A stretch of DNA of 10,153 bases from Candidatus Zymogenus sp. GTDB taxonomy: Bacteria > Desulfobacterota > Zymogenia > Zymogenales > Zymogenaceae. Under the pieces are notes generated by a model that was not told the DNA's origin, ran no database searches, and worked only from the letters and a program-made list of their open reading frames with translations. Shown here piece by piece: positions 1-9,490 of the stretch (position 1 is the first letter of the stretch; every line of letters begins with the position of its first letter). A program made the translations under genes and the position numbers. Location: the NCBI GenBank assembly GCA_030613285.1, contig JAUWME010000041.1, positions 1 to 10,153 on the forward strand, in the 5' to 3' direction.

Positions 1-66
1 GGCGTTGTCCAACACCCCAACATTTCGGGGATTTTTGAAATGATCCATAACTTTTTCACTGTACAT
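1..66 (-). CDS. nifU: NifU/IscU Fe-S scaffold protein, N-terminal fragment
   Basis: Only the first 22 codons are in the window; the gene runs off the left edge on the minus strand. The protein begins MYSEKVMDHFKNPRNVG, the characteristic N-terminus of the NifU/IscU scaffold family, on which [2Fe-2S] clusters are assembled from sulfur supplied by a NifS/IscS partner. The metal-binding Cys residues lie beyond the edge, so it cannot be decided whether this is a short IscU type or a longer NifU with extra domains. The start ATG (66-64) is preceded by an AGGAG ribosome binding site (complement of 77-81). It lies downstream of the NifS-like gene in the same direction, separated by 289 bp of repeat-containing DNA, so cotranscription is likely but not certain. 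The family call is firm despite the short fragment, because the N-terminal motif is highly specific. Confidence 0.88.
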   Translation of the reverse strand, partial: MYSEKVMDHFKNPRNVGVLDNA

Positions 67-76
67 AATTGCCTAT

Positions 77-81
77 CTCCT
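77..81 (-). promoter_or_regulatory. Ribosome binding site of nifU
   Basis: The complement reads AGGAG about ten bases before the ATG at 66. It supports that ATG as the true start of the truncated gene at the window edge. Confidence 0.6.
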
Positions 82-124
82 GTGTTAAAGTATCTTACTA
101 TTAATAAATTCCTTTTCTTTTTTG

Positions 125-300
125 TCATTTAAGACAAAAGCATATTGAGATTGCCACGTCGTTCGCTTTTCTATCGAAAAGCTCTCTCCTCTTAAATGAC
201 ATTAAAGGGTGCTGTCTCCACCTTGTCATTGCCTTCTTGACAAAGGAATCCAGAAAAATATCCACTGGATTCCCAATCAAGTTGGGAATGACAAATTGTA
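125..300. repeat. REP/MITE-like intergenic repeat with nested hairpins
   Basis: This stretch between the nifS-like gene and nifU holds several inverted repeats. The outer arms are TTGTCATT (223-230) and AATGACAA (287-294). GGAATCCAG (245-253) pairs with CTGGATTCC (265-273), and alternatively TTCCCAA (270-276) pairs with TTGGGAA (282-288) across a five-base loop. The two inner hairpins share bases, so they exclude each other. Related sequence occurs at 6287-6319 (ACTGGATTCC ... AATGACAAA) and the CCACCTTGTCATT block recurs near 6645. Repeats of the form CTGGATTCCC...GGGAATGAC are common between genes in Desulfobacterota and other phyla. No open reading frame here looks coding. Confidence 0.6.
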
Positions 301-355
301 ATTGTCCAACCACACAACATCCAACCACATTGATTACCAACCCCCTTTTGCGTCT

Positions 356-1540
356 CTATTTTGTGTCAACCCCCTTGAGATACTTTGTATAAAGGGGCGA
401 CATCTTTCGGAGCCTATCAACGATGGGAGGCATAACCTCAAGGACGTACTTGACATCCTCCATGTCGTTGATCATCCCAAAGCTGAAGACAAGGGAACCC
501 TGGGCCAGGGCCGTTTCTATCTTCATCGCTTCGAGAACATGAGAGGCCTTTAATGCTCTTGATGTACAGGCGGAACCGCTTGCCACGCACACTCCCTCTA
601 TGCTGAGGCTCAAAAGCATGGCTTCTCCCTCGATGAACTCCACCACAAAACTTGCATGGCCGGGAAGTCGCTCCTTTGGGTGTCCTGTAAGGTAGAGATG
701 ATCGACTTTGGAGGTAAGACCATCAATGAGGGCATCCCTCATACCTGATAGATATTCAGCGCGATTTGCCATCTCCCCTTTTGCAAGCTCAGCAGCAATT
801 CCCAGCCCAACAATCCCCGGAAGATTCTCGGTGCCGGGCCGCCTGCCATCTTCTTGTATCCCCCCGTCTATCAATGGAATTATTCTCGTCCTTTTTTTAA
901 TATATAGGGCAGCGGCGCCCTTTGGGCCGTAAAACTGGCTCCCGGATAGTGAGAGGGTATTGACCCCAAGCTCCTTTACATCAACGGGGATATTACCCGC
1001 AGCAGCCACCGCATCCGTATGAAAGACTACGCCCCGCTTCTCTGCAACTTTCTGAATTTCCCCCACAGGTTCAATCGTCCCCACCTCGCTGCTGGCAAGC
1101 ATGACAGAAACAAGGATCGTATCATCGGTAATTGCCTTATCAACATCATCGGGATTGACAACACCGTATTTATCGACGGGGACGTGGGTTACCGAAAACC
1201 CCTCTTTTGTGAGGCTTTTTGCAGAATGGAGGACCGACTGGTGTTCAATGGCTGAAATGACGATGTGGCTCCCTTTCTTTTTTGCGGCATGGGCAAGTCC
1301 CTTAATGGCAATATTGTTCGACTCGGTGCCGCTGGACGTAAAGAATATTTCATTGGGTTCAGCCGAGATGAGGTCTGCCACCTTTTCCCGCGCTTCTTCG
1401 ATGGCTCCCTTTGCTTGTTCGCCAAAGATGTGAATGCTCTGAGGGTTTCCAAAGTATCCTTTCAGAAATGGTATCATCCCTTCGACAACGTCGTTATTTA
1501 CCGGTGTCCCTGCTGCGTGATCAAGATATATTTTTTTCAT
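356..1540 (-). CDS. NifS/IscS-family cysteine desulfurase homologue lacking the PLP lysine
   Basis: The 394-residue protein matches class V aminotransferase-fold cysteine desulfurases (NifS/IscS) along its whole length. Recognisable blocks are YLDHAAGTPV (5-14), the phosphate-binding SSGTESNN (69-76), EHQSVLHS (99-106), FHTDAV (173-178), FYGPKG (203-208), RPGTEN (234-239) and the sulfur-accepting loop ASGSACTS with Cys325. In active members this loop Cys takes the persulfide from substrate cysteine held by PLP. Here the Schiff-base lysine (normally HK before the aromatic-YGPKG block) is Gln202, read directly as codon CAG (complement of 935-937), and the preceding His is Ser201. Other pocket residues also differ: Ser151 for Asn, Ala179 for the PLP-contacting Gln, Val351 for the substrate-carboxylate Arg. 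His100, Asp176 and Thr72 remain. Normal length and no frameshift argue against a decaying gene. It lies upstream of nifU, which suggests a sulfur-transfer or docking partner for NifU. The start follows a G-rich ribosome binding site and a strong promoter. Family assignment is firm; desulfurase activity is doubtful. Confidence 0.93.
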   Translation of the reverse strand: MKKIYLDHAAGTPVNNDVVEGMIPFLKGYFGNPQSIHIFGEQAKGAIEEAREKVADLISAEPNEIFFTSSGTESNNIAIKGLAHAAKKKGSHIVISAIEHQSVLHSAKSLTKEGFSVTHVPVDKYGVVNPDDVDKAITDDTILVSVMLASSEVGTIEPVGEIQKVAEKRGVVFHTDAVAAAGNIPVDVKELGVNTLSLSGSQFYGPKGAAALYIKKRTRIIPLIDGGIQEDGRRPGTENLPGIVGLGIAAELAKGEMANRAEYLSGMRDALIDGLTSKVDHLYLTGHPKERLPGHASFVVEFIEGEAMLLSLSIEGVCVASGSACTSRALKASHVLEAMKIETALAQGSLVFSFGMINDMEDVKYVLEVMPPIVDRLRKMSPLYTKYLKGVDTK

Positions 1541-1803: not shown

Positions 1804-2256
1804 ATGATTGCTCGAATAACAACGCATTTTGATTGTACTGAAAAAGAACTTTGGGAAAAAATAATCGAGCCAAAGTCATTACAATTTGTAGCTTCACCTA
1901 TTTTGCGTTTTGAACCACTTGTTAAGGGGGAATTTGATGGTGAGTGGATTACAGGTAAAACGTATGAGCTAAAGTTGCGTTTTCTAAATATTTTACCCCT
2001 GGGACGTCACAGAATAAAGGTAGTTTCAATAGACAAAACATCAAACACAATTGTAAGTGTTGAGAGCGGCACGCTTGTACCGGTATGGAATCATACAATA
2101 GAGTTTGGTCAAAAAGAAGAAGGTAAATTAAACTACATCGATGAGATTGAGATAAAGGCGGGGTTGCTGACGATAGGCATTTGGTTATTTGCTCATCTGT
2201 TTTATCGTCATCGTCAAAGACGTTGGAAAAAACTGCTGGAACAAATTTATGGATAA
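1804..2256 (+). CDS. SRPBCC/START-like small ligand-binding protein
   Basis: This 150-residue protein probably has the SRPBCC (START/polyketide cyclase) fold, a small helix-grip domain enclosing a hydrophobic pocket. What is seen is a first strand MIARITTHFDCT followed by the helix ELWEKIIEPKSLQFVASPILRF, alternating beta strands through residues 50-110 (GKTYELKLRFL, RHRIKVVSIDK, NTIVSVESG, YIDEIEIKAG), and a long C-terminal amphipathic helix ending HRQRRWKKLLEQIYG. That order is characteristic of the family. It is soluble with no signal peptide. The ligand cannot be predicted. A weak AAGG ribosome binding site precedes the ATG. The gene is the only complete plus-strand gene here and is AT-richer than its neighbours, with many A/T-ending codons. 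It is flanked by an attC-like palindrome and a tandem repeat, which hints at acquisition by transfer. The coding call is good; the fold assignment is inference from pattern. Confidence 0.72.
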   Translation: MIARITTHFDCTEKELWEKIIEPKSLQFVASPILRFEPLVKGEFDGEWITGKTYELKLRFLNILPLGRHRIKVVSIDKTSNTIVSVESGTLVPVWNHTIEFGQKEEGKLNYIDEIEIKAGLLTIGIWLFAHLFYRHRQRRWKKLLEQIYG

Positions 2257-2434: not shown

Positions 2435-2491
2435 ACTACAAATATTGTCATGGGGTCTAATCAGAACTACAAGTATTGTCAGGGGTTCTAC
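2435..2491. repeat. Two-copy 31-bp tandem repeat beside the V4R gene end
   Basis: ACTACAAATATTGTCA followed by TGGGGTCTAA (2435-2460) recurs 31 bp later as ACTACAAGTATTGTCA followed by GGGGTTCTAC (2466-2491). The second copy overlaps the V4R stop codon (complement of 2488-2490). Repeated short motifs of this kind occur at the ends of some insertion sequences, for example the IS21 family, but no transposase is present here. It could be a solo end left by a lost element. Confidence 0.5.
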
Positions 2492-3099
2492 TTTCCAAAG
2501 GTAACAAGGAGTTGGCATACTTCATCTCCCTTGGCCCTGCACAGTGTCTCCACAACATTAACCCCATCTACTCCCGACCAAGTCCCCATTCCAGCTATGA
2601 AATCCGCCTCAATGACGCATATCGGACCCTCTGCCTTTACATCGACGCACCAAGGGCAATCGGGCATATCCTCAATTATCTTGTCGTCCTGAATATCAAT
2701 GGTAGTGGCCGTTCCGAACATCTGGGTAACATTATCTATATACGTTTTGTAGACCAATTTAAACTTATCGATGGGGTCAAGCCCATCCATCTCAAGCTCC
2801 CCAATTCCGAAAAGCCCGGGGAAATCCTCCATCATTTGGTGAAAGGACTTTTTGCCTGCTCCCCGAATAACGGATATAAAACCCTTCTCTCCAAAGATAT
2901 CAATAGTGGCGGTAAATATCTTGCTGAAGGTCTCTACAGGCTCTCCGGGATTGTAGTCGTTTGGGGGGTAGTTGCCGACGAGTCTCTCAAGTCCCTTGTA
3001 CCTGAGGACGGTATTGATGCCATTTTTTCCTAATATTTCTTCTAATTCGGTCAGAATGAAGTGCATTAAACCATTTGGAAGCTGTTTTTTGGGATCCAT
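2488..3099 (-). CDS. V4R-domain (4-vinyl reductase-like) protein
   Basis: This 203-residue protein ends in a V4R domain, a small-molecule-binding fold named from BchJ-like 4-vinyl reductases and related to hydrocarbon-binding regulators. The signature runs from about residue 145: DCPWC (147-151), a Gly-Pro-Ile-Cys (158-161), a Gly-rich turn, VVETLCRAKGDEVC (182-195) and a terminal beta strand. Five Cys (148, 151, 161, 187, 195) lie in this domain, a pattern often suggested to bind metal. The first half is an alpha/beta region without a motif I can name. There is no signal peptide and no DNA-binding domain, so a soluble sensor or accessory role is more likely than a stand-alone regulator. The start has an AAGGAT ribosome binding site (complement near 3110-3115) and a promoter upstream. 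It is probably monocistronic. The substrate is unknown, and a tetrapyrrole role cannot be assumed because no chlorophyll genes are present. Confidence 0.85.
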   Translation of the reverse strand: MDPKKQLPNGLMHFILTELEEILGKNGINTVLRYKGLERLVGNYPPNDYNPGEPVETFSKIFTATIDIFGEKGFISVIRGAGKKSFHQMMEDFPGLFGIGELEMDGLDPIDKFKLVYKTYIDNVTQMFGTATTIDIQDDKIIEDMPDCPWCVDVKAEGPICVIEADFIAGMGTWSGVDGVNVVETLCRAKGDEVCQLLVTFGK

Positions 3100-3249: not shown

Positions 3250-3360
3250 ATGAAACAAATTCCAAAACGAACCAACAAAGCAGGAGCAGCTATAGTCTTG
3301 CCAGCATTGTCAGAATCGTTAGAATTACCAGATTTGATCTACCTGAAGATTTTTTTATGA
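3250..3360 (+). CDS. Possible 36-residue small ORF of unknown function
   Basis: An ATG at 3250 preceded by GGAG at a good distance opens a 36-codon frame reading MKQIPKRTNKAGAAIVLPAL and ending in a Leu-rich tail with a TGA at 3358-3360. It runs toward the DUF362 gene and overlaps its stop region by six bases. No family is recognised. The Shine-Dalgarno spacing favours translation, but the short length and lack of any known motif leave chance or a decayed remnant equally likely. Confidence 0.22.
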   Translation: MKQIPKRTNKAGAAIVLPALSESLELPDLIYLKIFL

Positions 3361-4683
3361 ACAGTTGAAGTGGGTCTCGTCAAACTCCTCTTTTCCCTCA
3401 TACTTCTTCGCAATCTCACCCATGTAGAAATCGTAGGCCCCCTCAACAAAATCCACTCCACAGATTTTTAGGGCATTCTTCAACTCTTCCACAGGAGGCG
3501 GGCACCCCTTTACCGCAAGGGCGCCTTTGATATTTGCATTACCCTTGTTTGCCTTGATGATGCAGTTGCCCAGGAGAATTGTCCTGTCGTATCCGGGCCT
3601 CGCCAGCATTTTTTTTCCACTTAATATCTCAAAGTTCGAAAACGGGTTGTCCTCACCCCCCTGGCCCCCTTGCATCTTTGCCGAGATAAGAAAGATGTTT
3701 GCCATATTCACCACGGGGGAACAGCCCGTGCAGAGCGTAGTATCATATTTTGGCACGGCAGCGCCTTTTATACCCATCCTGTCAAAGACTGTAGGGCCGG
3801 TGTTCTCCTCGTTCCAGCTCCAGTCCCACTTTATCGGCTTTTTGACAGCGTCAATATCTTCCCCAATCAAATCAATCTCCTGAATATCCAAAGACTCCTC
3901 CCCCCGATCGGCGTAATATTTCAGGTGAGCAATTTCGTTCGGGTCAAGCCCCATAAGCGTGGTTCCAACAACGTCGGCCGCAAGTATGTCTGTAGAAGCA
4001 ACGATTAAATCCGATCGGTGTGCCTTGCCCGTCACCATCGGCCCCTTCTCCAAGATGTAGATGCCGTCCAGCACAGTAAGGTCTGGGGCAATCTTCTCTG
4101 CGATGAGTGAGATGGCCAAATCGAGATCGATTTCAGGGTGATGACACAACCTCTTGGAGGCGGTCTTGAGGCACCCCTTGAGGTTCTTAAAACCGAGTGA
4201 TACTTTCGTCTGGGCGTGTGTCTTCATCACCGGCAGATCGATGAAAAAATCGATATTCAGCACATCTTTTGCGATGGAGACGTCAAGTCCCTTTGTCAGC
4301 TCAATTTTTTCAGATTCTGATTTATTAAGGTCGATAAGTTTTGCGCCGTACCGTTTTACTATTTTCTCGTAGCCAAGCTTTTTCATAACAAATTCCGAGT
4401 CCGGGGTGTCGTCGTAGATTTTTACGGCCCCCTCGGCAATCGAGATATTTGTAACTCCAAATTCCTTTAGGAGGATCACCATATCTTCCACCATCCTTGT
4501 TGTGGTAAAAAAGCCGTATGGAGGAAGGTAGTGATCGTTATCCCACGTCAGGGCGTTCGGTTTTATGATAACGGCGTCTGACAGCTTCAGATCTGAAAAA
4601 CCGTCTGAAAGCTCGATGGCTTCCCGTAAGGACCCCGTGGGTTTTTTATATTTAACGATTGCTACTTTCTTTTTGTTTTCCAA
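3355..4683 (-). CDS. DUF362-domain protein, Cys-rich, putative Fe-S binding
   Basis: This 442-residue protein carries the DUF362 domain. Supporting segments are VIIKPNAL (38-45), an N-terminal GFFTTTRMVEDMVILLKEFG block (58-76), VLNIDFFIDLPVMKTHAQTK (141-160), FKNLKGCLK (165-173) and VLDGIYILEKGP (204-215). These correspond to the KPN, DLPvmKTH and K-N-xKG signatures of the family. DUF362 proteins are widespread in anaerobes, often linked to ferredoxin-type domains, and their reaction is not established. Here the C-terminal third holds Cys318 and Cys321 (CTGC), Cys374, Cys394 (GCPPP), Cys408 and Cys441. That set could bind an Fe-S cluster, but the classical CxxCxxCxxxCP ferredoxin motif is absent. 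No signal peptide is visible, so it is probably cytoplasmic. A GGGAGG ribosome binding site lies upstream of the ATG. It follows the acyl-CoA synthetase gene with a 133-bp gap containing GACGTY repeats, so it may be the second gene of that operon or separately controlled. Confidence 0.87.
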   Translation of the reverse strand: MENKKKVAIVKYKKPTGSLREAIELSDGFSDLKLSDAVIIKPNALTWDNDHYLPPYGFFTTTRMVEDMVILLKEFGVTNISIAEGAVKIYDDTPDSEFVMKKLGYEKIVKRYGAKLIDLNKSESEKIELTKGLDVSIAKDVLNIDFFIDLPVMKTHAQTKVSLGFKNLKGCLKTASKRLCHHPEIDLDLAISLIAEKIAPDLTVLDGIYILEKGPMVTGKAHRSDLIVASTDILAADVVGTTLMGLDPNEIAHLKYYADRGEESLDIQEIDLIGEDIDAVKKPIKWDWSWNEENTGPTVFDRMGIKGAAVPKYDTTLCTGCSPVVNMANIFLISAKMQGGQGGEDNPFSNFEILSGKKMLARPGYDRTILLGNCIIKANKGNANIKGALAVKGCPPPVEELKNALKICGVDFVEGAYDFYMGEIAKKYEGKEEFDETHFNCS

Positions 4684-4816: not shown

Positions 4817-6247
4817 TTATTTAAATATGTCCACTCCGTGAACCTTCATAAAATCAACGTACTTTTGGATATTCATCGTCGCCCTTGCCATCCTCGCCGC
4901 CGACGGATACGCAGGGATTCCCACCTCTCTCAACCTCCCAATAAACTCCGCCCGAACCGCTTCAGCATCCGAGCTGTTTTCGTATACCCTTGGGATTATC
5001 ATAACCGTGGGCTTTTTCACCTTAGAAAGCCCCTCGATAAGGATGTTGACACTCATATCCCAAGCATCGGGCGCCATCGCCTTTATCATCTCAGGATACT
5101 GGCAACCCATTACAATATCGATATTTGGGTCTTCGGCGGCAAGCATCATTGCGTTTACAAAGATATTTGGCGCAAACCCAAACATCCCAAGATCGATGGG
5201 ATTTTTAGTCGATGTATTCACAGCGGATATATCCACACCGATCTTCTTTTGGATTTTTTCCGAAAGGGTCGGGACAGACAATCCATTTAGTGATACGCCG
5301 TCCGTAAGCTCAACGGAGCTTCCACCCCCGGCAACGGCGATGGCAACGTTTCTCCCCTGGGGCAAAAACCCCAACTTCAGGGCAATCATAACATCCGCCA
5401 GCTCGTTTTGATTCTCCACGTTAATGACGCCCAGCTGATCCATGACAGAATCCCAGATTTTCGTGGGCACAGCAACCGCACCGGTGTGGCTGGAGGTCGC
5501 TCTGGCACCGTCCACAGACCTCCCCCCTTTCCAGAGCACCAATGGTTTCTTTTTTTCTAATATGGTCTTTTTTACAACGCTTTTAAATCGCTCCCCATCC
5601 TTGACGTCCTCGGCATACCCACAGATAAACTTGATCCTGTCATCCTCTGCAAAATACTCAATGAAGTCCTCAATGGCGAGATTCGCCTGATTTCCAAGAC
5701 TGATGACTTTGTTAAAATCGAGGCCGATGGAAAGCCCGCGGATGGTAAAATTCAGGGCGTGGCCGCCAGACTGGGAAAAGAAGGCCACATCACCCCTGAT
5801 GTCGCTATTAAGTTGTGCGTAAAAGACAAGCCCCGACTCCGGGCAGTGGGCGCCGATGCAATTAGGACCAACGATGCGGGTCTCGCTCCCACGGATTGTC
5901 TCTATCAACTCCTCTTCCAGGGCGTATTCGCCCATCTCGGAAAAGCCGGAGGTAAAGACGAGCACAAACTTTGCCTTTGCAATAACACACTCTTTAAGGA
6001 CACCGTTCACTTTCTCCCTGGGGAGCATGATAAAGGCGTAGTCCACCCTCTCCGGAACGTCATTTATTGTGGGGAAACATTCTATCCCCTCGATGTCGGT
6101 GTATTTTGGATTTACGCCGTAGAGTTTGCCTTTGAAGCATTCTTTCAGGCTGTAGAAGAATCCGGCCCTGTCCCTGATGACGTTGGGCGAAGCGCCAATT
6201 ACTGCTACTGATTTTGGATAGAAGAGGGGGTCTAAATTGATACTCAT
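4817..6247 (-). CDS. Acyl-CoA synthetase (NDP-forming) alpha subunit, no ATP-grasp domain
   Basis: The 476-residue protein is the alpha part of an NDP-forming acyl-CoA synthetase, the enzyme class that interconverts acyl-CoA, ADP and phosphate with acid, ATP and CoA. The N-terminal CoA-binding Rossmann domain starts DPLFYPKSVAVIGAS (Gly18-Ser20), followed by GPNCIG (127-132) and SQSGG (158-162). SSHTGA (252-257) holds His254, which matches the phospho-His of the family. The second half is the succinyl-CoA-ligase-like flavodoxin domain. The ATP-grasp (beta) domain found in fused homologues or as a partner subunit is absent from the chain and the window, so the nucleotide step needs a partner elsewhere. 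The frame is open to an ATG at 6322, but I prefer 6247: it gives the family-typical N-terminus, while the extra 25 residues are encoded inside a noncoding repeat. The ribosome binding site is weak (GAGAAAAAG). The substrate is unknown. Confidence 0.87.
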   Translation of the reverse strand: MSINLDPLFYPKSVAVIGASPNVIRDRAGFFYSLKECFKGKLYGVNPKYTDIEGIECFPTINDVPERVDYAFIMLPREKVNGVLKECVIAKAKFVLVFTSGFSEMGEYALEEELIETIRGSETRIVGPNCIGAHCPESGLVFYAQLNSDIRGDVAFFSQSGGHALNFTIRGLSIGLDFNKVISLGNQANLAIEDFIEYFAEDDRIKFICGYAEDVKDGERFKSVVKKTILEKKKPLVLWKGGRSVDGARATSSHTGAVAVPTKIWDSVMDQLGVINVENQNELADVMIALKLGFLPQGRNVAIAVAGGGSSVELTDGVSLNGLSVPTLSEKIQKKIGVDISAVNTSTKNPIDLGMFGFAPNIFVNAMMLAAEDPNIDIVMGCQYPEMIKAMAPDAWDMSVNILIEGLSKVKKPTVMIIPRVYENSSDAEAVRAEFIGRLREVGIPAYPSAARMARATMNIQKYVDFMKVHGVDIFK

Positions 6248-6286
6248 GTTACTTTTTCTCACAAGAGAGTTTATTGCGAAAGATTT

Positions 6287-6319
6287 ACTGGATTCCAGTT
6301 TTCCAAGGAAATGACAAAA
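6287..6319. repeat. Repeat related to the 264-295 element
   Basis: ACTGGATTCC at the left and AATGACAAA at the right match the ends of the element at 264-295, with different hairpins between. ACTGGATTCCAGT (6287-6299) is a palindrome around one central base, and TTTCC/GGAAA pair across two bases (6300-6311). It lies in the leader of the acyl-CoA synthetase transcript, upstream of the preferred start codon. Confidence 0.5.
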
Positions 6320-6363
6320 CATTGTGGTTTCAACTATGGTAATTCCAAAATTGAACTGGGGAG

Positions 6364-6686: not shown

Positions 6687-7181
6687 TCACTCTTCCCCAA
6701 ACCTCGAATCCATACACTTCTTGCACTGAGATTCATCAAGACCGTGTTCGCAAAAATCTCCGAATTTCTCAATGAAATCTGCCCCCACCATCGGACAACC
6801 CTCCACGTACTCAATATAGTTCAGCAGTCTCGAAAGAACCACGTCGTCAATAATATGCTCAATACGGCAGGCGTTTTTTTCCGCTATATCCTTTTCGATG
6901 CAAAGTACCTTGTTTAAAAACCGTGATATTATTTTGTGATTGTTGACAAGTTTCTCGGCTATCTTCTCTCCCTCTGGGGTCAAGGTTATGACCTGATGGG
7001 GGTCGTAGTTGACAAGTCCCTTTTCGCTGAGTTTTTTTAAGGCCCCGGTAACAGACGGCATCTTGACATCGAGAGCGCTTGCGATGTCCCTCACCCTTGC
7101 CACGCGGTTGTCCAAAATAAGGTGGTGTATGACTTCGAGATAGTCTTCCATGTTGGAGCTTAGCGAATTCTCTTGAGACAT
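6687..7181 (-). CDS. DtxR-family metal-dependent transcriptional repressor, iron-type ligands
   Basis: The 164-residue protein has the DtxR/MntR layout: an N-terminal winged helix-turn-helix (about 10-70, with RVRDIASALDVKMPSVTGALKKLSEKG split across helices 2 and 3) and a metal-binding dimerisation domain (about 75-135). Expected ligands are visible: MEDYLE gives Asp13 and Glu16, NNHK gives His82, and ACRIEH gives Cys105, Glu108 and His109. The Cys at the position of DtxR Cys102, rather than MntR Glu99, points to an iron-responsive protein, although Mn sensing cannot be excluded. There is no SH3/FeoA domain. Instead a short tail has Cys143, His145, Cys153 and Cys156 (CEH...CKKC) plus an upstream GCP, a possible extra metal site. 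The start is ATG 7181, not 7199, because AGAGGAGG lies directly before 7181 and a promoter predicts transcription from about 7203. Metal-bound protein would repress uptake genes. A palindrome in its own promoter suggests autoregulation. Targets are not visible here. Confidence 0.9.
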   Translation of the reverse strand: MSQENSLSSNMEDYLEVIHHLILDNRVARVRDIASALDVKMPSVTGALKKLSEKGLVNYDPHQVITLTPEGEKIAEKLVNNHKIISRFLNKVLCIEKDIAEKNACRIEHIIDDVVLSRLLNYIEYVEGCPMVGADFIEKFGDFCEHGLDESQCKKCMDSRFGEE

Positions 7182-7191
7182 TTTTGTCCTC
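7182..7191 (-). promoter_or_regulatory. Ribosome binding site deciding the DtxR-family start
   Basis: On the minus strand GAGGAGGAC precedes the ATG at 7181 with a spacing of about six bases. The alternative ATG at 7199 would lie upstream of this site and only about four bases from the predicted transcription start, so it is unlikely to be used. Confidence 0.65.
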
Positions 7192-7209
7192 CTCTGCAAT
7201 ACTCATCTA

Positions 7210-7425: not shown

Positions 7426-8154
7426 CTACCGCAACTCATACTTGATGGGAACCTTGAGGTTCAGTTTTTTCCTGTTTAGCTTTGCCGGAATCGGCGGATA
7501 GGGAGAAGCCTTGAGGATCGTGCTCAAGGCCGCATCATCGAGGGTTTGATACCCTGAACTCAAAACCACCTTCATCACCACAACAGACCCTGATGAATCG
7601 ATGAGAAACGAGACCGTGGTTGTTCCTTCCTCGTCGTTTATCCTTGCCACTCTGGGGTACTTCTTCTTTTTTTCAATCCTATCTCGGATTTTTAAAATAT
7701 ATCGATTCAATATCTTACGATTTAATAATTCACTCCTTAAGCTATCTCCCAAAACCCCCTCGTTTAACGTTGCGCCTACGTCATCATCAACGGGCGTTTG
7801 AAAATCGCCCTCCTCCACTTCATTATCAATCTTTTCAGGATCAACCTTTGCAAGATCGGGATCGATCTCTTTTATTTTTTTTTGAGGTAATTTTTTTTGC
7901 TTTCTAATTTCGTTATCGGATCGGTCGTCTTCAGAGATCACGATATCCATTGTGGTGATTCTCCCTGTGTTTAATTGGGACGGCATCACCATAAATATTG
8001 GGAAGAGGAGAAATATCAGAAAGAGGTGGAAAATCGTGGAGAGGGAGAGGTACGGGAGGTGTCTCTTAAATCCTCCACCCTGTTGATTAATCACGTCAAA
8101 TTTCGCAGGCTGGTTCTTAACTTCATCTCTATTTTTTTTGTTCATATTAGACAT
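7426..8154 (-). CDS. tonB: TonB-family energy transducer
   Basis: This 242-residue protein has the TonB layout: a cytoplasmic N-terminus of about 35 residues, one membrane segment (about 36-57), a charged periplasmic linker and a C-terminal TonB domain (about 165-242). The membrane helix contains Ser39 and His43 spaced as in the S-x3-H motif of E. coli TonB, needed for coupling to ExbB/ExbD. The C-terminal domain shows the YPxxAR start (166-171), the beta-strand FLIDSSGSVVVMKVVLSSG (183-201) and the LDDAAL helix (205-210), ending in KVPIKYEL. TonB passes proton-motive energy from ExbB/ExbD to outer-membrane receptors for iron chelates and other scarce substrates. The linker is rich in Lys, Asp and Glu rather than Pro, and the long N-terminus is atypical. 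It lies 77 bp after the ABC ATPase gene in the same direction with no obvious promoter between, so cotranscription is likely. No exbB or exbD is in the window. Confidence 0.9.
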   Translation of the reverse strand: MSNMNKKNRDEVKNQPAKFDVINQQGGGFKRHLPYLSLSTIFHLFLIFLLFPIFMVMPSQLNTGRITTMDIVISEDDRSDNEIRKQKKLPQKKIKEIDPDLAKVDPEKIDNEVEEGDFQTPVDDDVGATLNEGVLGDSLRSELLNRKILNRYILKIRDRIEKKKKYPRVARINDEEGTTTVSFLIDSSGSVVVMKVVLSSGYQTLDDAALSTILKASPYPPIPAKLNRKKLNLKVPIKYELR

Positions 8155-8231: not shown

Positions 8232-9431
8232 TTACTGTTTAATATCCACTCGATTGCCGGTGGACTTGTCAAAAAAGTGAACTCCCTTTTCATTGAGTGA
8301 AAAAGTTCTCACATCACCGGGGGACAATGGAGTAGCCCCGCTTTCCACATTTATTCTCATTGTAATATCCACTCCAGCCACACCAAGGGCAGAAACGGTA
8401 ACGTGGCTCTCATAGCCAAGCTCCTCCACGTGTTTGACCTCCCCTTCAAATTGCCCCGCCACATTTTTACCCTTTTTGCTGCTATCGGTTTTACACAAAA
8501 TATCTTCGGGTCTAATTCCAAAAATTATCTCCGAGAAATCCCGGTTGTCTTTTAAAACAATATTATCTGCAAGCGACTTCTCGATAATCCCGTGGAGCCT
8601 CGTAGCTGGCTCGATAAGATTCATATTGGGACTTCCGATAAAGCGGGCAACAAAGATGTTTTTAGGCGATTGATAAATTTCCCTTGGGGTTCCCACCTGC
8701 TCAATAGCGCCGTCATTCATCACTGCCAGCACGTCCCCCATCGTCATTGCCTCAATCTGGTCGTGGGTGACAAAGACCATGGTGCCTTTAACGTCTTTAA
8801 TAATTCTCGATATATCAGAGCGCATCTTTACCCTCAACAGGGCATCGACGTTGCTCAAAGGCTCATCCATCAAAAAGAGGCTTGGGCTTTTAACGATGGC
8901 CCGTCCCAGTGCCAAACGCTGTTTCTCCCCGCCGGAAAGATGTCCCGGTTTTTTCTTTAGTAGTTGAAAAATCCCCAAAAGCGACGCCGCATCCCGCGCC
9001 CGCTTGACCGCCTCCCTTTTTTTCATCCCCCTTGTGGTCAGACCAAACGTCATGTTCCTTTCCACCGTCATGTGGGGATACAGGGCATAATCCTGAAAGA
9101 CCATGGCGATATTTCTATCCTTCGGGTTTTCGTCTGTGATGTCGCTGCCAGCGAGAAAAACCCTCCCACTATCTGGCATCTCAAGTCCGGCAATAATTCG
9201 AAGGAGCGTCGATTTTCCGCACCCCGAAGGCCCCAGCACCACCATGATCTGGTACTCTTCAACCACAAGGTTTACCGAACTTAGGGCCACCGATGTTTGG
9301 GGCGAGTCACCGCTATCCTCAATTGAATCGTTTCCATCTTCAATTGAATCAGCTCTGCAACCTTTAATAAAATCAGAATTTCCCAATGGCCCAAAACACT
9401 TGGAAATATCTTTTAGTTTCAGGTAGCTCAT
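8232..9431 (-). CDS. ABC transporter ATP-binding protein, MalK/UgpC (CUT1-like) type
   Basis: The 399-residue protein is a nucleotide-binding subunit of an importer with a C-terminal TOBE regulatory region. Motifs: Walker A GPSGCGKST (67-75), Q-loop Gln113 (VFQDYALYP), signature LSGGEKQ (165-171), Walker B LFLMDEP (185-191), D-loop SNVDA, and switch His223 (VTHDQ). FIGSPNMN and FGIRPEDI in the C-terminal part are typical of MalK/UgpC carbohydrate or polyol-phosphate importers, though PotA- and FbpC-like relatives share the layout. It sits on the inner face of the membrane with two permeases and a binding protein, none of which is in the window. Between the aromatic of the A-loop region (about residue 13) and the strand before Walker A there is an acidic insertion of roughly 30 residues containing DSIEDGN and DSIEDSG, not usual for the family. 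ATG 9431 is preferred over a GTG at 9449 because it starts the family-typical strand. It is followed by tonB. Confidence 0.92.
   Translation of the reverse strand: MSYLKLKDISKCFGPLGNSDFIKGCRADSIEDGNDSIEDSGDSPQTSVALSSVNLVVEEYQIMVVLGPSGCGKSTLLRIIAGLEMPDSGRVFLAGSDITDENPKDRNIAMVFQDYALYPHMTVERNMTFGLTTRGMKKREAVKRARDAASLLGIFQLLKKKPGHLSGGEKQRLALGRAIVKSPSLFLMDEPLSNVDALLRVKMRSDISRIIKDVKGTMVFVTHDQIEAMTMGDVLAVMNDGAIEQVGTPREIYQSPKNIFVARFIGSPNMNLIEPATRLHGIIEKSLADNIVLKDNRDFSEIIFGIRPEDILCKTDSSKKGKNVAGQFEGEVKHVEELGYESHVTVSALGVAGVDITMRINVESGATPLSPGDVRTFSLNEKGVHFFDKSTGNRVDIKQ
9315..9351. repeat. Two-copy 21-bp tandem repeat inside the ABC ATPase gene
   Basis: ATCCTCAATTGAATCG (9315-9330) and ATCTTCAATTGAATCA (9336-9351) are near-identical copies 21 bp apart, encoding two copies of a DSIED-containing heptad in frame. 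The insertion appears to have grown by duplication without breaking the frame. Confidence 0.7.
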
Positions 9432-9490
9432 AAATCGCTCTTCAATCACCCATCAATCAATATACTCGTTGACTCATATTTAAAATATTA

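Follow-up and report, generated by a model that had tools for sequence, protein, structure and literature searches.

The nifS* gene and its surroundings

The window, meaning the whole stretch of DNA that was analysed, is one entire contig of 10,153 bp (C202) from a genome assembly of 2.84 Mb in 546 contigs that is 88% complete. On its reverse strand, at 356..1540, lies a gene that we call nifS*, encoding a 394-aa homologue of NifS and IscS without the Schiff-base lysine. As the initial annotation had claimed, the frame is intact, running from an ATG start with no internal stop. In an alignment with E. coli IscS, Gln202 (codon CAG, 935..937) occupies the column of the PLP lysine, Lys206, and Ser201 (938..940), Ala179 (1004..1006), Ser151 (1088..1090) and Val351 (488..490) replace His205, Gln183, Asn155 and Arg354, respectively. 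Cys325 (566..568), the cysteine of the sulfur-carrying loop and the counterpart of Cys328, is kept, and His100, Asp176 and Thr72 align with His104, Asp180 and Thr76; all of these codons are read on the reverse strand. The initial annotation had named the same nine residues and proposed this alignment, which bore out every one of them.

We take Arg354 to hold the substrate carboxylate, Gln183 and His205 to be PLP contacts, and His104 and Asp180 to be the pair holding the PLP ring. From the missing lysine and the missing equivalents of Gln183, His205, Asn155 and Arg354, nifS* is predicted to have lost both PLP binding as an aldimine and cysteine desulfuration in the usual way. The catalytic roles of Lys206 and Cys328 in E. 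coli IscS are described in the part of PMC2854127 available to us. By profile search the protein has the aminotransferase class V fold (PF00266, 250.6 bits against a cut-off of 21.5), with NifS and IscS as its best models. Its score with the best of these, TIGR03402, is below the NifS equivalog cut-off (493 against 530.75 bits), which is a weak test because the lysine-type NifS of the same genome, to which nifS* is 45% identical, also lies just under it at 527.8.

A sequencing or assembly error at codon 202 was rejected: a genome of the same genus, G001, has the identical CAG, and Gln is present in 119 of 119 other best database matches. Between nifS* and its G001 orthologue dN is 0.11 and dS, near saturation, is 1.9, giving a dN/dS of about 0.06; as judged from these substitution rates, nifS* is under purifying selection.

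The adjoining gene is iscU, whose start (1..66, reverse strand, continued on contig C301) is cut by the contig end after the first 22 residues; because the window is the whole contig, the scaffold gene is incomplete within it. Between the two genes is a gap of 289 nt (67..355), compared with 23 nt in G001. The gap contains a dispersed repeat at 185-310 that, counting this copy, gives 51 matches across the genome at E ≤ 1e-5 (40 of 119 candidates scored). C301 (locus L118) opens with the same 118 bases as the contig end and carries the complete iscU (L118:53-550), which encodes 165 aa and ends in a short tail that contains Cys. A dsrE2-like gene lies 3' of it, within 578-1111, and is followed by tusA at 1142-1381. 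Joined across the contigs, the operon order is nifS*-iscU-dsrE2-tusA, and in G001 these four genes form one continuous run (L120). The initial annotation was thus right to place nifS* beside nifU, with only 22 residues of the scaffold in the window and the remainder on C301.

The scaffold consists of the NifU N-terminal, IscU-type domain only (PF01592, 166.4 bits; TIGR03419, 192.6 against a cut-off of 187.9) and keeps its cluster-site residues, three cysteines and an Asp. TusA and DsrE2 match their families with 82 bits (PF01206) and 173.7 bits (PF13686); they are best called relatives and not proven orthologues, since both score under the NCBIfam equivalog cut-offs (45.9 against 78 for NF001423 and 74 against 210 for NF047629). 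The C301 copy is the single tusA above the family cut-off in the genome.

A second, canonical NifS, which the initial annotation had suggested looking for, is present in the same genome. This lysine-bearing gene, L002, is on another contig, behind an Rrf2 gene and before a gene that by eye resembles mnmA, and there is no iscU on its 4.8-kb contig. We considered selenocysteine in L002, where one TGA had been flagged, and rejected it; the TGA is an ordinary stop. A second IscU-like gene, 43% identical to the query, was seen at 3235-3678 of L119 (G000:C451), flanked by ATPase genes with ferredoxin-like motifs and by a reductase-like protein with a rhodanese-like end, all named by eye.

Elsewhere in the window are an ORF without a family match (1804-2256, forward strand), a V4R-type domain just under its cut-off (2488-3099), a DUF362 protein (3355-4683), an acetate-CoA ligase alpha-like protein (4817-6322), a DtxR/MntR-type regulator (6687-7199), a TonB C-terminal protein (7426-8154) and a sugar-type ABC ATPase (8232-9449). 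The suggestion that the organism lives with abundant sulfide drew no support from dsrA within the genus: there was no match above cut-off in G000 or G001. Nor does dsrA favour a host that reduces sulfate, as G044, G059 and G100 likewise gave no match above cut-off. The gene is present in three other hosts of lysine-less proteins, G009, G031 and G035.

A broad family of lysine-less NifS proteins

nifS* is a member of a broad bacterial family and not a single odd gene. Among the best 120 of 8000 scored database matches, the window protein included, Gln stands at the lysine position throughout, and the equivalents of Cys328, His104 and Asp180 are kept in 120/120. We also scanned loci using an alignment of 18 Gln-type proteins as query, with one genome per species and ranking by likeness to that alignment. 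The lysine is absent from 78 of the 80 nearest loci (best 80 of 579 relatives). Since only the closest kin of Gln-type proteins were kept, this figure gives the reach of the clade, not how frequent it is within NifS as a whole. The site is mostly Gln in the 78, with Met, Leu, Pro, Glu and Arg also found. The two exceptions, L076 and L082, have the lysine and all of its companion residues, and the loop cysteine is kept at 80/80 of these best-ranked loci.

Lysine-less loci among these 80 span about ten phyla, their hosts, by record title, belonging to Chloroflexi, Aminicenantes, Acidobacteria, Planctomycetota (anammox genera), Nitrospirae, Deltaproteobacteria, Elusimicrobia, Omnitrophota, Saganbacteria and Actinomycetota. 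A less selected sample was drawn from 39 genomes of the window's phylum and its kin, in which the best matches were read for the own genome and 29 others; the lysine was missing from the best match of the own genome and from those of 14 of the 29 others. Viral contigs yielded no close relatives of nifS*.

The companion residues have largely disappeared with the lysine. Asn155, Gln183, His205, Lys206 and Arg354 are invariant in 45 lysine-type proteins and mostly gone from 90 lysine-less ones, where they persist in 16, 2, 12, 0 and 0 proteins, respectively. Cys328, His104, Asp180 and Ser326 are conserved in at least 97% of the pooled 135. The lysine-less group has markers of its own, with Ser in place of Ala106 and, just past the loop, Lys in place of Glu334 and Ala in place of Pro335. 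L003, L130:8717 and L100 were left out of this comparison.

In a careful tree of 65 rows, built without six active-site columns, 35 lysine-less rows form one clade (support 96/94), whose members mostly adjoin iscU; the initial annotation had suggested a tree to look for such a clade. A. fulgidus IscS falls apart from this clade. It pairs with a bacterial protein, L100 (100/99), inside a group of 12 rows (98/93) of which the other 10 are lysine-type. This tree needs two changes at the lysine site, whereas a quick tree of 94 rows (138 rows thinned by identity to 90, plus 4), from which the careful tree dropped 29, needs three and includes one very long row. The initial annotation had left undecided whether the bacterial gene was independent of or related to the archaeal one: in the best tree the two belong to separate lysine-less lineages, yet a constraint uniting all lysine-less rows is not rejected (p-AU 0.147). 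On these trees, the lysine appears to have been lost either twice, with similar companion losses, or once and deeply.

The best solved relative of L100 is A. fulgidus IscS, at 474 bits, with the next different protein at 360. Among the best 120 of 8000 scored matches to L100, its own record included, Asp occupies the lysine site in 119, and Gln183 is replaced by Ala and His205 by Asn in all 120.

Genes beside lysine-less NifS and desulfurases elsewhere in the genome

At 66 of the 78 lysine-less loci iscU adjoins nifS*, and in 55 of the 66 no more than 30 nt separate it from the end of the matched region. The cluster-site residues Cys37, Asp39, Cys63 and Cys106 of the partner IscU are each present in 77-78 of 78, and the single exception is a gap. 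Within 6 kb, tusA is found at 53 of these loci and dsrE at 24, and other neighbours are a small zinc-ribbon gene or tail (46), nfu (20), nadA (20) and rrf2 (8); all are lower bounds, as several contigs end close by. The zinc-ribbon count covers a Cys-rich IscU tail or a small trailing gene, as at L118, L007 and L023. In the IscU partners, the HCS motif is followed by Asn in 61 of the 67 listed for lysine-less NifS (78 in total) and by Val in 18 of the 22 listed for lysine-type NifS (30 in total).

The sulfur-carrier genes distinguish the two kinds of NifS. A tusA or dsrE gene on the same strand within 1.5 kb accompanies 59/91 lysine-less genes and 0/47 lysine-bearing ones, and tusA alone 56/91 against 0/47, with a Fisher p of 1.7e-14 that is overstated because related loci are not independent and the tree offers only two fully separate pairs. 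The comparison sets aside L001, L113-L117, identical sequences and the window's own gene, and its 47 lysine-type rows include the SufS-like L003 and the very divergent L130:8717. Its tusA and dsrE profiles were derived from genes adjoining lysine-less NifS, which could favour matches there; in a looser repeat (E ≤ 0.05, either strand) marginal tusA matches appeared at 2/47 lysine-type loci. When only loci with both flanks of at least 1.3 kb were counted at the loose threshold, the figures were 47/71 lysine-less and 2/36 lysine-type. The neighbours of lysine-type genes are instead iscU (30/47), nfu (18) and rrf2 (7).

At lysine-less loci tusA lies downstream in 43 cases and upstream in 13, so that gene order has been rearranged while the linkage was kept. 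Neither tusA nor dsrE was found within 1.5 kb at 32/91 lysine-less loci, many of them from Aminicenantes, and some of these contigs end nearby. When 148 genomes of the phylum were searched for AfIscS-like genes, two Asp-type loci came up, each having an upstream tusA and one of them a dsrE-like gene as well; neither gene stands beside any of the eight lysine-type rows from that search (0/8). The 91-versus-47 counts already include one of these Asp loci (L194, which encodes L100) and three of these lysine-type rows (L101, L196 and L198). The carrier cysteine is kept in 56/56 TusA and 27/27 DsrE proteins encoded near lysine-less NifS.

Two additional cysteines recur in TusA of lysine-less operons, in 43/56 and 47/56 proteins, and to our knowledge such extra recurring cysteines are unusual in a sulfur carrier. 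Aminicenantes-like loci (L014, L016, L043, L048, L064 and others) have the operon nfu-nifS*-iscU-nadA, sometimes without tusA, and often with rubrerythrin-like and nth genes further along.

Many hosts of lysine-less proteins also have a conventional enzyme. We sampled 50 genomes from the 78 loci, and the canonical NifS lysine motif is present in 36, by a pattern that is not exhaustive, since the lysine-type NifS proteins of G054 and G080 (L165 and L147) escaped it. In nine of the 50 the lysine-less protein is the sole NifS-type match at E ≤ 1e-60. One of the nine, G068, encodes a lysine-bearing SufS-like protein; in the other eight (G043, G044, G047, G049, G051, G056, G059 and G088) no lysine-bearing class V desulfurase was detected, which does not amount to proof of its absence, given the 100-N gaps in G044 and completeness figures that are not given. 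The other class V matches in these eight genomes are serine-pyruvate-type aminotransferases only, as we take, by eye, the secondary matches with an SQKG motif (L182-L187) to be, plus in G044 a broken near-copy of its lysine-less gene. This NifS-like fragment, a candidate second NifS that we rejected, is the start of a lysine-less near-copy broken by a 100-N gap. Two of the eight genomes are chromosome-level records; that of G044 is not closed, as its chromosome is scaffolded and contains gaps. The sole TusA found is close to nifS* on the same contig in G043, G044, G047 and G056 and on another contig in G051; G049, G059 and G088 have more than one.

Proposed function and known systems

That nifS* is in use is argued by its retained loop cysteine, by purifying selection and by an IscU partner whose cluster site is complete. 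We consider it probable, at roughly 60%, that this NifS/IscS paralogue is dead as a desulfurase, docks IscU and makes its loop cysteine available as a relay for sulfane sulfur, as a cluster ligand, or as both, the two roles being compatible. Judging from homology and the operon, nifS* would form an IscS-like dimer and dock the IscU encoded by the next gene. As a relay, DsrE2 and TusA would supply sulfane sulfur and TusA would hand it to Cys325, in a direction that we infer; TusA would then depart, IscU would dock, and the sulfur would move from Cys325 to IscU. Alternatively or in addition, Cys325 could serve as an outer ligand while IscU assembles its cluster, a role reported for A. fulgidus IscS. 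The initial annotation had proposed a docking or sulfide-handling partner for NifU. The adjacent scaffold gene is consistent with docking, and because the neighbours are the sulfur carriers DsrE2 and TusA, a sulfane-sulfur relay seems a better fit than sulfide alone.

The proposed handover from TusA to IscU draws on E. coli, where, in the part of PMC2854127 available to us, the IscS-TusA crystal places the two cysteines about 4 Å apart, and IscU displaces TusA, so that the two cannot bind IscS simultaneously and must alternate; a relay through nifS* would likewise require alternate binding. That complex (PDB 3LVJ) joins TusA to a loop-cysteine NifS-type protein at a known docking surface. According to the same portion of PMC2854127, sulfur in E. 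coli flows from IscS to TusA, whereas in nifS* it would run the other way, since nifS* should not make persulfide from cysteine. The relay has evidence against it in the 32/91 lysine-less loci without nearby tusA or dsrE and in linkage counts that are not independent.

It is rather unlikely that the protein has a docking or ligand role only, with Cys325 completing the cluster on IscU, free sulfide feeding it, and TusA and DsrE2 acting elsewhere, for example in tRNA thiolation. A. fulgidus IscS offers a precedent (PMC7585200, available part), as does the M. jannaschii SMS system, reported to use sulfide in the accessible part of PMC12192291, and both the eight genomes without a detected lysine-bearing desulfurase and the loci without carrier genes would suit such a role. 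What speaks against it is that the tusA/dsrE linkage is specific to lysine-less NifS (59/91 against 0/47) and recurs in the Asp lineage, and that the sole TusA found is close to nifS* in four of those eight genomes. We think it improbable that a pyridoxal cofactor, held with no Schiff base, still serves a different reaction here, as it does in PMP-type sugar dehydratases, whose lysine has also been replaced. Non-covalent cofactor binding is conceivable because the His104 and Asp180 equivalents are invariant, and Thr76 and Thr243 are largely kept; but Gln183, His205, Asn155 and Arg354 have mostly been lost together, and position 206 varies widely (Q, P, M, L, E, R, S, A or N), unlike a new catalytic residue. 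Nor do the recurrent neighbours (iscU, tusA, dsrE, nfu, nadA, rubrerythrin-like, nth, purA, trxB and flavin-reductase-like genes, partly named by eye) suggest a new PLP substrate.

The protein might instead lack activity of its own and act as a partner or regulator of the genome's lysine-type NifS, the latter making the persulfide. With the canonical lysine motif in 36/50 sampled genomes, a lysine-type enzyme could supply persulfide, and the own genome does have L002, with no iscU on its contig; 8/50 genomes have no detectable lysine-type partner, however, and nifS* and L002 lie on different contigs, and we regard this account as improbable. A decaying duplicate or an assembly artefact has next to no chance of being correct. 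The catalytic residues are gone and the assembly is fragmented (546 contigs), but the low dN/dS, the Gln of 119/119 nearest proteins and the loop cysteine of 80/80 loci refute it by conservation, leaving residual doubt for single loci only.

Lysine-less IscS is already known from archaea. A. fulgidus IscS (PDB 4eb5, 4eb7, 4hvk and 4r5f) and M. acetivorans IscS1 belong, like nifS*, to the NifS/IscS family, have lost the lysine and have an IscU partner, according to the available part of PMC7585200, which agrees with the parallel, including the complex with IscU, that the initial annotation had drawn. There, A. fulgidus IscS is reported to be inactive and to deliver no sulfur, its contribution being a Cys that ligates the IscU-bound cluster. 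nifS* has likewise lost the lysine and kept the loop cysteine and iscU partner, and in both proteins the equivalents of Gln183, His205 and Arg354 are replaced. The two differ in that the archaeal protein has Asp at the lysine site, where nifS* has Gln, and groups with a bacterial Asp lineage amid lysine-type NifS.

With the NifS/IscS desulfurases (TIGR03402, TIGR02006; E. coli IscS) nifS* shares full-length homology, the sulfur loop and the iscU operon, but it has neither Schiff-base lysine nor substrate Arg and scores below the NifS model cut-off. The Minimal ISC system (MIS) also combines a NifS-type protein with an IscU-type scaffold; it is described, in the part of PMC12192291 available to us, with a cysteine desulfurase, from which nifS* differs because the catalytic lysine is missing. 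In the open-licence literature, where failure to find is a weak absence, we found no published report of a bacterial lysine-less clade, of its link to TusA and DsrE2 or of genomes lacking a detected cysteine desulfurase.

Textbook ISC-type Fe-S assembly starts from cysteine via a PLP enzyme. We suggest tentatively, at somewhat less than even odds, a third mode of ISC assembly, in which a non-enzyme NifS takes sulfur from DsrE2 and TusA on its loop cysteine and feeds IscU, in some bacteria without any cysteine desulfurase. It would have arisen in one large clade and possibly again in the Archaeoglobus-type lineage, with similar pocket losses and, where viewed in bacteria, TusA alongside. If this is true, IscU would draw on a different sulfur source across many bacterial phyla, which have kept the NifS-IscU partnership and discarded its chemistry. 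A. fulgidus IscS, moreover, ceases to be an isolated puzzle and becomes part of one of two broad lineages with a common genomic signature. The genomes named above as having no detected cysteine desulfurase are places where the idea can be tested.

The AfIscS-like Asp proteins are a large bacterial family (for example, L100 and L195), and their source annotations, where given, read cysteine desulfurase.
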